Below are positions 11,679 through 16,836 of a DNA stretch of 58,516 bases, piece by piece; position 1 is the stretch's first letter, and every line of letters begins with the position of its first letter. Position numbers and translations under genes: made by a program. The notes beneath the pieces were generated by a model that was not told the DNA's origin, did not search any database, and worked only from the letters and a program-made list of their open reading frames with translations. Source of the DNA: a virus; the IMG/VR virus record IMGVR_UViG_3300031963_000166, positions 1-58,516 of that record; one strand, 5' to 3'.

Positions 11679-13619
11679 TTATTCCCACGACTCTTTGTGC
11701 CCGTTTGGGTGGGTCTCCTCTTCCCATTCTTTGATGTCTTTAGAGTCTGTCCAGCTTCTGTTTGGCCTTATTGCCGACGGCTTTGGCTGCTCTATTGGGT
11801 ACTGAACATTTTTTCCATCAATTGCTTGCTGCAGGTAGTCTACGCCGTTAAATGTAAATCTCCTGATTCTTCTGTTAAGCTGAAAAATGCAAAATCCTTT
11901 TTGACCCACTATTTTTTGCTTCTTGATTTTTTTGCTGTGGAATTCGCACGTCGGATCATCCGGAGCCGTTTGGGCAAATGGCCTGTGATAAATCAGTATG
12001 TTGTCAACCTTGTTGTTCCACATCGCTCCGTCAGCCAAATCAAAAACGTCAGGGCACGGATAGTTTCCGTCATCGCCCTTCCTCATCTTGTGAGGGTGAA
12101 TAACAATGTCAAAGCAAACGTTGTTTTTTCTTGCGAAACGCGTGCAGTCCGACAAAAACGTTTCAAGGTACTTATCCGTTCTTCCCGAGCTCTTAGCATA
12201 ATCGTTGGCCATTTGGTTGAACGGATCTATGACGACCCTGTCTACGTTGAATTTTATTATCAAGCTGAGGAATATCTCCTTGACATAATCAGGGGTAGGG
12301 GCTACGTCTTTTGGGTAAACCATAAAAATGTGCTCGCCGATCATTTTGTACACCTTCATGTACGATTCGTATGGCGGTCTCCCTGGGTTGTTAGGAGTGC
12401 AGTCGCACCCAAAATATATCTCTACAAGATCGTGGTAAAACTGCTCCGCAGGAAGTTCTTCCGGCGTGAATATGGCCACCTTTTCGCCAAAAACAACCAT
12501 TCTGAAGATCATTTCCCACTTCATAAATGCCGATTTCCCGTAGTTTCCTATTCCTGATATCGCGGTAAGCTCCCCTTTTGCTCTTTTGAAATGTTTGTCA
12601 ATCTCCGGGACACCAAGCGGTTGGGCTGTCTTGTACCCATTAAGGTATATGCTTGCCGCCCGATCAGAAACCTCTTCCGCATAAATAACATCTTCTTTCG
12701 ACATTTCTGCGGCGTCTTCTTCCGTAATGATTATGTCGATCTCTCTCTTGGTTGTTCTTGTCACAAGTTTCTCGTTGGTAAACTCAGCGGTGTTCCATTG
12801 TGACTTATTCGCCCTGTAGGCGCTTCTTACGGCGTTTCTGCATTCTTTTTGACTAAAGCTTGCGTCTGGCACAACATATGTCATCATCATGTTGTAACAC
12901 GTTTCCTCAAGCATTCCAAACCTACAGCAACTCGCGGCGAGTTTGAACACAAAATGATTTCTCTCGCCTTCCCGAAAAGCATCTCCTCTTGATGCCATCC
13001 ATGTTAAAAGGTTGTTGAATATTTTGTCATCGTCGGTAACTGTAATTTGCTCCGTGTGTTGCCTCCTGTTTTCTACACGATCGGAGACCGGCAGCTTATC
13101 GAACGCCAGAGCCTGATGATTCATCAAAATATTCGGGTCAAACGACTCAAAACATAGTCTTGAAACGTTTCTGCCGGTCTTATCGGCATCTGGAAACTCC
13201 TGCATAAGCGCGTCAAAGTGCTCGGCATGCTTTGACTCCCATTCTATTTCAACCAAGGCTTTTACTCCGTTTCCAGAAGGAGAAATCCACGCGGCTAAAA
13301 CATACTTGGAAAGCGCCAACTCTTTCTTTTTTTGTTCAGCATCTGGCACCTTGTCAAAATCAAGCACAACATACCCGGAATGCTCCATCAGGCTTCCGTC
13401 TGCCCTTTTTGAAAACCTACCGCTAAAACACACTCCAGGTAGCGTTTTTTTGATTTCGTCAGCTTCTTCTTTTGTCTTGGCCGATCTGATCTTTTCGACA
13501 GTTTCACGAGACTTACCGTCTTTAATCCTGTCAAGAGCCTTGGAAATAGTGATCACGTCACCGGTAATGTCTCTTGAGTTTCTGTATATGGAAACCTTAC
13601 CATTTATTGTTTTCGTCAT
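11679..13619 (-). CDS. primase-helicase fusion (VirE_N-like plus DnaB-like)
   Basis: A 646-residue protein. Residues 1 to about 180 resemble the VirE N-terminal (BT4734-type) primase-related domain: GYVVLDFDK with D87 and D89, then SPSGNGVK at 113-120. Residues about 195-280 look like a PriCT-type helical domain. From about 325 a RecA-like DnaB or Twinkle helicase follows: Walker A GIGNYGKS (356-363), the EE pair at 387-388, Walker B VVIDP (462-466), then an IHPHK segment. It would unwind the fork and prime or load at it. The start at 13619 overlaps the upstream initiator gene by 23 nt. Primase activity is inferred; helicase is secure. Confidence 0.85.
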   Translation of the reverse strand: MTKTINGKVSIYRNSRDITGDVITISKALDRIKDGKSRETVEKIRSAKTKEEADEIKKTLPGVCFSGRFSKRADGSLMEHSGYVVLDFDKVPDAEQKKKELALSKYVLAAWISPSGNGVKALVEIEWESKHAEHFDALMQEFPDADKTGRNVSRLCFESFDPNILMNHQALAFDKLPVSDRVENRRQHTEQITVTDDDKIFNNLLTWMASRGDAFREGERNHFVFKLAASCCRFGMLEETCYNMMMTYVVPDASFSQKECRNAVRSAYRANKSQWNTAEFTNEKLVTRTTKREIDIIITEEDAAEMSKEDVIYAEEVSDRAASIYLNGYKTAQPLGVPEIDKHFKRAKGELTAISGIGNYGKSAFMKWEMIFRMVVFGEKVAIFTPEELPAEQFYHDLVEIYFGCDCTPNNPGRPPYESYMKVYKMIGEHIFMVYPKDVAPTPDYVKEIFLSLIIKFNVDRVVIDPFNQMANDYAKSSGRTDKYLETFLSDCTRFARKNNVCFDIVIHPHKMRKGDDGNYPCPDVFDLADGAMWNNKVDNILIYHRPFAQTAPDDPTCEFHSKKIKKQKIVGQKGFCIFQLNRRIRRFTFNGVDYLQQAIDGKNVQYPIEQPKPSAIRPNRSWTDSKDIKEWEEETHPNGHKESWE

Positions 13620-14409
13620 AAGTAGGGGCTTGTTTTTTCATGTTGACTATATCTGTTTCGGTGGAAAATTCTTGTTCCCAGCATCTTTGGTTTAACCATG
13701 TCTGTAGGTTTTTCCATTGTGGGAAAAATTCTTTTTTAGACCTTGCGGCCTCTCGCGCTGCCAACTCCTTATCAAGAGCCGGCATGAGTAGCGGGAGCGC
13801 TTCTTTCCAGTCCTTGTGCTTTTTGAACGTTCTGAACTCTGTCATAGACCCCTTCTTGGTTCCGCCATACTTTTTACGGAAATCCTCAAAGGATGCCGGC
13901 ACCTGATTTTTGACTTCCTCGCACAGCAGCGGTTTGGGGGCTGAATTTGAAAACTTCAAGCGATCAAACACATCTCTTTTGTATGTATTTTTATTTCTTT
14001 GTAAAGTTGTTTCTTTGTATATACCCGGTTCTACCGATTGTCGGTTTTCACCGATAACGGGAAAACCTGATATCGGTGAAAGCTCATCTTGGTTGAGCTC
14101 GTGCTGTGGGGAATCATAGATGACGTGATCCCAGCCAATTAGTTTACCGGTAGATTTGTCCGACGTCCTTTTGCTGAAGATGTACCCCTTGTCTTGAAGG
14201 GACTTAAAAACCCTGTCTATTGCATGCTTCCCATCAGGAAGGCGCTCATAAAGATTTTTTTTGTAAATCACCCAGTCGTCAGGAAGAGACAAAAGGAACG
14301 ACAACATCCCCTTCTCTTCAAGCGTTAGGCCAACGGACTGAGTCAGTTCGTTTGGCAAGACGGAGAACCCGTGTTTGCGCTTGGCTTTAATTATTTGTCC
14401 TGTATTCAT
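13597..14409 (-). CDS. winged-helix replication initiation protein
   Basis: A 270-residue protein. The N-terminal 100 residues form a helix-turn-helix domain typical of phage replisome organisers: HGFSVLPNELTQSVGLTLEE, then DWVIYKKNLYERLPDGKHAI and DRVFKSLQDKGYIFSKR. After a variable linker comes a basic C-terminal helical region (FRKKYGGTKKGSMTEFRTFK, ending near WLNQRCWEQEF). It probably binds the origin and loads the adjacent helicase. The ATG at 14407-14409 is chosen because upstream sequence forms a terminator hairpin. Expression appears strongly leader-controlled: hairpins at 14485-14508 and 14415-14450 and a leader ORF precede it. Confidence 0.8.
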   Translation of the reverse strand: MNTGQIIKAKRKHGFSVLPNELTQSVGLTLEEKGMLSFLLSLPDDWVIYKKNLYERLPDGKHAIDRVFKSLQDKGYIFSKRTSDKSTGKLIGWDHVIYDSPQHELNQDELSPISGFPVIGENRQSVEPGIYKETTLQRNKNTYKRDVFDRLKFSNSAPKPLLCEEVKNQVPASFEDFRKKYGGTKKGSMTEFRTFKKHKDWKEALPLLMPALDKELAAREAARSKKEFFPQWKNLQTWLNQRCWEQEFSTETDIVNMKKQAPTYDENNKW

Positions 14410-14488
14410 AGAAGAAAAAAAACAAGCCCCGTGTGGAGTACCGGGGCTTGGGTTGGTCAAACTTGCGTTCAACTTGCCAAACCCTCAT
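14387..14488 (-). CDS. leader peptide ORF ahead of the replication initiator
   Basis: A 33-codon ORF beginning MRVWQVERKF. Its ATG (14486-14488) follows GGAG by five bases, a good Shine-Dalgarno spacing. The SD lies in the loop, and the ATG in the 3' arm, of the perfect hairpin at 14485-14508. The frame runs through the terminator hairpin, where the T-run encodes Phe codons, and ends 23 nt inside the initiator gene in another frame. This is the layout of a leader peptide for translational coupling or attenuation. Translation is not proven and the ORF could be fortuitous. Confidence 0.45.
   Translation of the reverse strand: MRVWQVERKFDQPKPRYSTRGLFFFFYEYRTNN
14415..14450 (-). terminator. terminator-like hairpin in the replication operon leader
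   Basis: CAAGCCCCG (14423-14431) and CGGGGCTTG (14442-14450) form a perfect 9-bp stem with a 10-nt loop, followed on the minus strand by eight T, CTTC and then the initiator ATG. Its loop holds CTCCAC (minus strand), complementary to the GTGGAG loop of the hairpin at 14485-14508. As a terminator directly before a start codon it most likely acts as an attenuator. Confidence 0.85.
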
Positions 14489-14508
14489 TTTGACTCCACT
14501 CAAAATGA
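14485..14508 (-). promoter_or_regulatory. leader hairpin sequestering an SD and ATG
   Basis: TCATTTTGA and TCAAAATGA form a perfect 9-bp stem around the loop GTGGAG (minus strand). The loop contains the GGAG Shine-Dalgarno sequence and the 3' arm contains the ATG of the leader ORF. The loop is perfectly complementary to CTCCAC in the terminator loop downstream, allowing a six- or seven-base-pair kissing interaction. Confidence 0.75.
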
Positions 14509-14529
14509 CGGCCTGGCTGTAAGACTTTG

Positions 14530-14560
14530 CAAACATAGCAAAACAAAATCATCTTGTCAA
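14530..14560 (-). promoter_or_regulatory. Bacteroidetes-type promoter for the replication operon
   Basis: On the minus strand TTG (14560-14558, in TTGACAAG) and TATGTTTG (14537-14530) are separated by 20 nt. Transcription would start near 14523 and give a leader of about 110 nt carrying both hairpins. It is divergent from the plus-strand promoter at 14589-14618. Confidence 0.8.
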
Positions 14561-14588: not shown

Positions 14589-14618
14589 TTGACACGTCGT
14601 TAATTGTATGTATATTTG
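14589..14618 (+). promoter_or_regulatory. Bacteroidetes-type promoter for the plus-strand operon
   Basis: TTG (14589-14591, in TTGACACG) and TATATTTG (14611-14618) are separated by 19 nt. The start codon at 14634 follows about 15 nt later. The palindrome AAAATATTTT (14571-14580) lies between the two divergent promoters and could be an operator. Confidence 0.8.
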
Positions 14619-15813: not shown

Positions 15814-16027
15814 CGTCTACGATTACTACATCCGCAGAGAGGTAGTTGAAAAAAGCAAGCTTGATTCTCTCGTGACGAATCCTGAAGTCGTGGCTATTTT
15901 TGACGGATCTTACGCATCCATAAGAAGGGCTATCGTAAAGATGAGGGACAAGAAAAGTGTCGGGAAAAAATTCTTTGAAAAGCAAATGGCTTTTCTTGAG
16001 GTGTATGAAAAAAACTTTGTAAAATGA
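15770..16027 (+). CDS. hypothetical basic helical protein
   Basis: An 85-residue protein starting MIRTKTKSQYEKGISV, rich in Lys, Val and Tyr and predicted mainly helical. I chose the ATG at 15770; a TTG four codons earlier is also open. It overlaps the upstream gene and ends by overlapping the start of 16024-16836 as ATGA. Similar charge and helical pattern to its upstream neighbour, with which it may interact. Function unknown. Confidence 0.65.
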   Translation: MIRTKTKSQYEKGISVYDYYIRREVVEKSKLDSLVTNPEVVAIFDGSYASIRRAIVKMRDKKSVGKKFFEKQMAFLEVYEKNFVK

Positions 16028-16836
16028 ATTTTACAGGAATTGACATAGACAAGCTTAAGTTGCTCAATGGCTGCTGCCTTGTTCAGCTTCACTCTTATAC
16101 AGAGGATGAGATTTCATTTAATGGCGGAACACTGAAGCTTGTTCACAAGGTAAAAACATACGCCTCAGAGGCCGACCCAAGGGATATCGTAAGCGCCGTG
16201 AAGGGGATGAAAAAGTTTCGGTATAAGGACAAGGAGGCAATGAAGGAATATCAGTCGATGGCGGCTGAGTTGAATAAAAAGGTTGACGAAAACAAGGAGA
16301 GCCAGCAGGACAAGCAGGCCGTAAGAAGAGGAGTAATCGTGAAACTCCCGCATGCATGCCTTGGTGATTCCGGGTGGGACTATGAATGCGAGTTTGATGG
16401 AAACGTGGGGGACGAAGTATGGTTTGACGCCACCTACACCAGGGAAATGATAACCGAAGGAGAGGGAGGGTTCGAAATTGACGGAAAAATATTCCTGATG
16501 ATTCCCGTTAAGTCAATTTATGCGGTTAAAAAAGATGACGAAATATTGGGGCTGAACGGTTTTGTGATAGGGAAAAGGCTGCCGAACGACAGGAAGCAGG
16601 GGTCGCTATATCTGCCTGACACGAAAACAGCAAGGGTCGAGGTTGTTGTGCCAAACGCAAGAACGCCGATATACAAAGAAAACTCTCCGTGGACAAACAC
16701 CGTTGTGAAAAAGGGAGACATTGTTTTGATGAGAGACATCTTTGCTATACCTCTTGACGCAACACTTGCAAAAAGCACTGACTTGGTCAGATTTCAAACA
16801 AGGGTAATAAGAGCTTACGAGCATGATCAAGCTTGA
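16024..16836 (+). CDS. putative tandem GroES-like protein
   Basis: A 270-residue protein that looks like two chaperonin-10 barrels in tandem. Half one: LNGCCLVQLHSYTE, a long insertion, RRGVIVKLP, GNVGDEVWF and DGKIFLMIPVKSIYAV. Half two: GFVIGKRLPNDRKQGSLYLP, ARVEVVVPNARTP, VKKGDIVLMRD and a final strand VRFQTRVIRAYE. The recurring order (strand, mobile loop, G-x-V strand, VGD or KGD turn, terminal strand) is that of GroES, which caps GroEL. Phage cochaperonins such as T4 gp31 help fold capsid protein, so the position upstream of the head genes fits. Sequence similarity is weak. Confidence 0.55.
   Translation: MNFTGIDIDKLKLLNGCCLVQLHSYTEDEISFNGGTLKLVHKVKTYASEADPRDIVSAVKGMKKFRYKDKEAMKEYQSMAAELNKKVDENKESQQDKQAVRRGVIVKLPHACLGDSGWDYECEFDGNVGDEVWFDATYTREMITEGEGGFEIDGKIFLMIPVKSIYAVKKDDEILGLNGFVIGKRLPNDRKQGSLYLPDTKTARVEVVVPNARTPIYKENSPWTNTVVKKGDIVLMRDIFAIPLDATLAKSTDLVRFQTRVIRAYEHDQA

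Follow-up and report, generated by a model that had tools for sequence, protein, structure and literature searches.

Where two operons diverge in the window (the whole stretch of 58,516 nucleotides that was analysed, from IMG/VR virus record IMGVR_UViG_3300031963_000166), a structured leader lies on the minus strand beside the gene for a replication initiator. The leader, its promoter and the two genes that follow comprise:

14530-14560, minus strand: promoter, recognised by sequence match, with the -33 element TTGACA at 14555-14560 and the -7 box TATGTTTG at 14530-14537
14476-14517, minus strand: P1, the 5' hairpin, 17 bp in the MFE fold, with an inner perfect 9 bp at 14485-14508
14494-14499, minus strand: L1, kissing loop GUGGAG, exact complement of L3
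14456-14473, minus strand: P2, a small middle hairpin of 7 bp with a GCAA loop (MFE fold)
14423-14450, minus strand: P3, putative terminator hairpin, 9 bp, G+C-rich, about -17 kcal/mol (fold, and covariation in relatives)
14433-14438, minus strand: L3, kissing loop CUCCAC, inside the P3 loop GUACUCCACA
14415-14422, minus strand: U8 tract of the putative terminator, directly after P3
14387-14488, minus strand: 33-codon leader ORF (ATG at 14488, stop at 14387), not conserved and probably non-functional
13597-14409, minus strand: replication initiator with a winged-helix N-terminus (PHROG replication initiation families, E 5.7e-12), the first gene presumed to be under control
11679-13619, minus strand: VirE/DnaB-like primase-helicase (PHROG DNA primase/helicase, E 6e-57), the second operon gene

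Two 9-bp hairpins, complementary loops, a T-run and a promoter had been described here by a sequence-only reading, and all of them lie where it placed them. Its first hairpin, 14485-14508, which reads TCATTTTGA-GTGGAG-TCAAAATGA, is indeed a perfect 9-bp stem but forms only the inner half of the 17-bp P1, and its count of two hairpins has to be corrected for P2. P3 reads CAAGCCCCG-GTACTCCACA-CGGGGCTTG and is followed by T8 (14422-14415), CTTCT and the initiator ATG at 14409, such that the whole is a promoter-to-terminator unit with a gene start just behind the terminator. The complementarity between L1 and L3 in the window extends over 6 nt, or 7 with one flanking base, and the 127-nt leader folds with -50.8 kcal/mol (z = -5.5 against dinucleotide shuffles). 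TAnnTTTG is the -7 consensus of Bacteroidota (PMC7366714), and a box of this kind precedes P1 in 49 of 51 distinct leaders. Transcription would start near 14523-14525, giving a transcribed leader from about 14524 to 14410, about 115 nt in length. Back to back with this promoter, on the plus strand at 14589-14616, is a divergent one (TTGACA-16-TATATT, also TATATTTG) that serves the plus-strand late block, at whose start (16024-16836, plus strand) a 270-aa protein with a weak match to a co-chaperonin GroES-like phage family (E 2.1e-4) is encoded.

A detector for the two-hairpin architecture was run on both strands of the window and on 40 dinucleotide shuffles of it (4.7 Mb). It gave two matches on the two window strands, the sole strong one being the replication leader, while the shuffled sequence yielded 50 weak matches, none with both stems of at least 8 bp and at least 5 G-C pairs in P3. 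The background of the MFE-based detector was high (50 matches in 1.59 Mb of shuffled sequence), and lone weak matches were for this reason left unused.

Dozens of IMG/VR contigs, collected via homologues of the initiator and the primase-helicase, share this leader plan, with the leader in the same position ahead of the replication operon, and so do cultured Flavobacterium, Cellulophaga and Tenacibaculum phages. These named carriers came to light through inspection of the gaps ahead of their replication genes; when the window leader and two leaders from relatives were compared with the named phages by blastn, nothing relevant emerged. The leader is always placed immediately ahead of the replication operon's first gene, also where that gene encodes a different protein. 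P1 is present in all clades; P2 occurs in the close clades and is absent in others. No clear element was apparent in Maribacter phage Panino or in ctfjg026, and four relatives (L018, L024, L025 and L030) with the initiator inside the operon had no leader and possibly follow another mode of replication control. At one contig start (L181, positions 1-90), the inner P3 motif GGGTGCGG...CCAATCCC with a T-tail lies before a different gene of 463 aa. In main-clade leaders (L152 and L154, for example), the promoter spacer that separates the -33 box from the -7 box holds a perfect inverted repeat, ACAACC-TCGCGT-GGTTGT, which recurs exactly in 28 stretches and, judged by its sequence, looks like a repressor operator on the leader promoter. 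A search of 84,980 species genomes with the P3 pattern revealed no host or prophage decoys: the pattern was absent from bacterial genomes and had one chance match, in an archaeon. No relatives of the helicase were found in genome contigs.

While the plan is shared, the loop letters are not. The window carries GTGGAG/CTCCAC, and among its relatives we find GTAAGGC/GCCTTAC, GAGCAAC/GTTGCTC, GAACCAC/GTGGTTC, ATGCAG/CTGCAT, AGGCAG/CTGCCT, GTGGCTT/AAGCCAC, GGGCAAT/ATTGCCC, GTTCAG/CTGAAC, GTACGAG/CTCGTAC and others. Phages isolated on one and the same host strain carry different alleles: on LMO9, lillamy9-1 has GTGAGACG/CGTCTCAC, morran9-1 has GTGAGAAG/CTTCTCAC, and mumin9-1 and snusmum9-1 have GTGGAACG/CGTTCCAC; on BAL314, elemoA, B and D have TGAGAGC/GCTCTCA, and elemoE and F have GTGGAGG/CCTCCAC. 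Further named carriers are FCL-2 (CATCCAC/GTGGATG), FCV-1 (GTAGAGAG/CTCTCTAC), FL-1 (CGTCTCAC/GTGAGACG), Tenacibaculum phage JQ (AGCATCCTAC/GTAGGATGCT), Nekkels (ATTGGAA/TTCCAAT), and phi19:1 and phi10:1 (both GTACGAC/GTCGTAC). Since the letters vary between phages always as matched pairs, the pairing must matter, probably as a switch by which replication is turned on.

The loop-loop pairing is conserved. Across 34 distinct loop pairs, cognate partners can pair over 6-10 bp (7.1 on average), as compared to 2.8 for non-cognate combinations. The summed cognate match is 242, a value that contrasts with a maximum of 134 among 100,000 permutations, and loops with shuffled letters attain 6 bp in 1.5% of trials. 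The loops in these tables were marked by hand, being located by eye with the aid of MFE folds, and an independent scan was therefore run with a pattern that specifies P3 alone and allows four loop variants. It returned 60 leaders in viral contigs, and in 60 of 60 the cognate L1 lay at most 110 nt upstream, the other allele in none; two further matches, from a viral contig and an archaeal genome, respectively, are non-leaders. The sequence-only reading had named a lack of covariation in relatives as evidence against the element, and both stems as well as the loop pair were found to covary strongly. In the main-clade alignment of 20 sequences, every kissing pair is preserved, two of the seven have both partners replaced in eight sequences, and the stems of P1 (here with G-U changes) and P3 covary as well. 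When the 3' partner was slid by 1-3 columns in this alignment, the paired cells fell from 98% to 39-49%. Covariation counts from a MAFFT alignment (A1), whose 3' loops were out of register, were discarded.

Close comparisons reveal how specifically the loops change. Of the 14 kissing bases, 6 differ between L148 and L149, all in a compensatory manner and with the rest of the transcribed leader unchanged, although these two contigs show 98-99% identity along most of 5.5 kb. In the same two contigs, a 400-base patch with 65-84% identity lies in a helicase-like gene, about 1850-1400 bases ahead of the leader. For the leaders L049 and L051, the only differences in the transcribed part are 3+3 matching loop bases, and the window shares 44 identical bases with L071 (linker, P2 and P3 arm) even though the P1 stem differs and the loops are different yet matched. 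When placed on a tree built from the primase-helicase of 50 phages, the loop alleles require 21 changes, as against 21.8 with shuffled labels, whereas P2, which lies between the loops, is more clustered (12 changes against 21.3). Recombination contributes to this scatter, because other leader features scatter too, and the scatter of alleles may owe much to it. The loop allele is also independent of the initiator type, since the same leader stands before different N-terminal domains (L237 and L244). In these initiators the N-terminal domain is swapped (MNTGQ.., MTDLN.. or MAKDPA..) with C-terminal half and leader unchanged, which by its sequence pattern points to a modular exchange of the DNA-binding part. 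The initiator protein as sole regulator was rejected on account of this independence. We infer that loop specificity is under diversifying selection, as a specificity code.

As to the nature of the element, the stem pairs contain 39 G-U and no A-C combinations when read on the sense strand, which indicates an RNA of the minus strand. Positions 1-7 after P3 are T in 86-100% of the 51 distinct leaders, unlike the sequence upstream of other gene starts in the window (22% T, 53% A), and a G+C-rich stem followed by a U-tract, the layout by which intrinsic terminators are recognised, is what the second hairpin displays, as had been suggested for it. P3 thus looks like a real terminator on sequence grounds; its calculated stability is -10 to -34 kcal/mol across leaders, with loop duplexes of -6 to -11 kcal/mol, and by these models it looks strong enough on its own to stop most transcripts. 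A DNA element such as a replication origin or a cruciform could be imagined at a divergence point of two operons beside an initiator gene, but the strand asymmetry of the stems, a U-tract on one strand only and a promoter just before P1 contradict it and make it the least probable explanation. We instead consider it probable that the leader acts on the phage replication operon as a transcription attenuator based on kissing loops. The same anatomy might also serve translational control, with the U-tract as an open ribosome site and kissing locking P3 beside the AUG and thereby limiting initiator translation. In each of the 51 distinct leaders, the AUG follows the end of P3 after 11-20 nt, which places the hairpin inside the ribosome footprint, and IncI-alpha plasmids, according to a paper cited in PMC10724649, use a loop pseudoknot beside the rep start; however, the tail that directly follows the stem consists of T almost throughout, as a terminator needs, and other starts in the window are A-rich, such that we regard this explanation as rather unlikely.

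Proteins offer another route to the same end. Paired loops of 6-7 nt lend themselves to protein binding, as exemplified by ColE1 Rop, and P1 and P3 are always kept together, so the kissing complex might be the binding site of a protein (Rop-like and operon-encoded, or a phage antiterminator) that decides about read-through. However, the loop letters vary freely and initiators with exchanged N-terminal domains follow one and the same leader, so that such binding would have to recognise shape only, and no shared small regulator was identified; this explanation appears unlikely too, if anything slightly more so. A free small RNA that pairs with itself or a partner (like phi29 pRNA multimers), or a superinfection RNA, with the operon receiving read-through only, would account for the full anatomy of promoter, about 110 nt and terminator, the two self-complementary loops and their fast matched change. 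Against this stand the invariable position directly before the replication operon, the lack of a packaging context and the absence of an Rfam pRNA match, and it is hence very improbable.

Other modes of control were considered and set aside. The leader ORF exists, but its translation or its Shine-Dalgarno sequence, which had been proposed as a possible control, cannot be a general feature, as an ATG in P1 is present in 0 of 20 main-clade leaders and most of these have no ATG before P3. Ligand-controlled folding fares no better: only the pairing and the U-tract are common across clades, and Rfam gave no match at gathering score in the window or 15 relatives (tRNA only) and nothing relevant at E up to 10, which also led to the rejection of a riboswitch or other known RNA. 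From the RNA switch envisaged by the sequence-only reading, loop pairing and terminator are retained, whereas leader-ORF translation and ligand sensing find no support. Antisense RNA control was rejected as well, with an antisense promoter of the -33/-7 type in 0 of 51 leaders.

With regard to how the proposed attenuator might work, RNA polymerase would start just before P1, and P1 would fold first and P3 afterwards, so that the P3 loop could pair with the waiting P1 loop, and this pairing would decide on termination just before the initiator AUG. Our more detailed model is tentative. In it, P3 is the default stop, and without kissing most transcripts would end there; L1 pairing in cis would hinder P3 and allow read-through; and the terminated leader RNA of about 110 nt would build up as phage genomes multiply, its loops competing in trans and shutting read-through. 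Many carriers of the leader are described as virulent (PMC7077304), which makes lysogenic immunity unlikely as the main use, and a virulent phage must express its replication genes early, which favours cis kissing as the read-through state. We infer the effect of kissing on termination, the direction of this effect and any action in trans, and the reverse direction is a possible alternative to the favoured model. Two structural considerations bear on this: the two loops of a free leader RNA could already be engaged with each other in cis, which counts against trans action, and a long P1 together with a folded P2 may leave little steric room for P1, P3 and cis kissing at once.

Known systems share parts of this design. 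Rho-dependent termination operates in satellite phage P4, whose leader resembles the present one as a phage replication-operon leader with complementary segments, here directly followed by initiator and primase-helicase. In P4 CI RNA immunity, pairing of seqB with seqA and seqC in the leader leads to premature transcription termination of the replication genes (PMC4825925). P4 lysogens contain a processed CI RNA, whereas in the present leader the loop of a putative intrinsic terminator at the AUG takes the part of the second segment, and the Rfam models of P4 CI RNA and C4 RNA gave no match. The C4 RNA of P1 and P7, a phage RNA with complementary loops, sets heteroimmunity (PMC12197685), but it controls ant translation rather than a replication operon. 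The rep leaders of IncL/M and of IncI-alpha/IncB/IncK plasmids have an SLI loop and a pseudoknot, and kissing by RNAI sets compatibility, which one loop base can change, IncK1 and IncK2 being compatible through a single RNAI base (PMC10724649). A precedent is given by IncI-alpha, where copy number reflects competition of the cis pseudoknot with antisense RNA, according to Asano and Mizobuchi (1998) as cited in PMC10724649. The likeness lies in an initiator-gene leader whose 5' loop pairs beside the start (L1 with L3, P3 next to the AUG); unlike these plasmids, the phage leaders have no antisense promoter, no conserved leader ORF, and a terminator instead of translational control.

In pT181 and pIP501, the rep gene is under premature termination combined with an RNA loop contact; here, no separate antisense RNA or alternative antiterminator stem was found, and the terminator's own loop is the target. 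The L5-L13 contact of the cobalamin riboswitch consists of an expression-hairpin loop that kisses an upstream loop, but the present leader has no ligand core. The phi29 pRNA, with its trans-complementary loops, has a packaging role, as opposed to the linkage to a replication operon seen here. The sequence-only reading knew of no such element in a Bacteroidetes phage, which agrees with the lack of a fitting Rfam family and with our literature search, which found no paper describing one among the sources it reached (most subscription journals lay outside).

In this context, it is conceivable, though somewhat doubtful, that the leader RNA serves as an identity code between co-infecting phages: a terminated leader would silence operons with the same letters, phages with other loop letters would not cross-inhibit, and selection would then favour new, rare matched pairs. 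This raises the question whether phages sharing a host recognise each other via their leader RNA. The leaders would also provide a natural set of more than 30 mostly orthogonal loop pairs. If the proposed attenuator holds true, virulent phages would possess a plasmid-style RNA control of replication, and if the code does, incompatibility between virulent phages would be mediated by RNA and comprise dozens of alleles in the flavobacterial phages.
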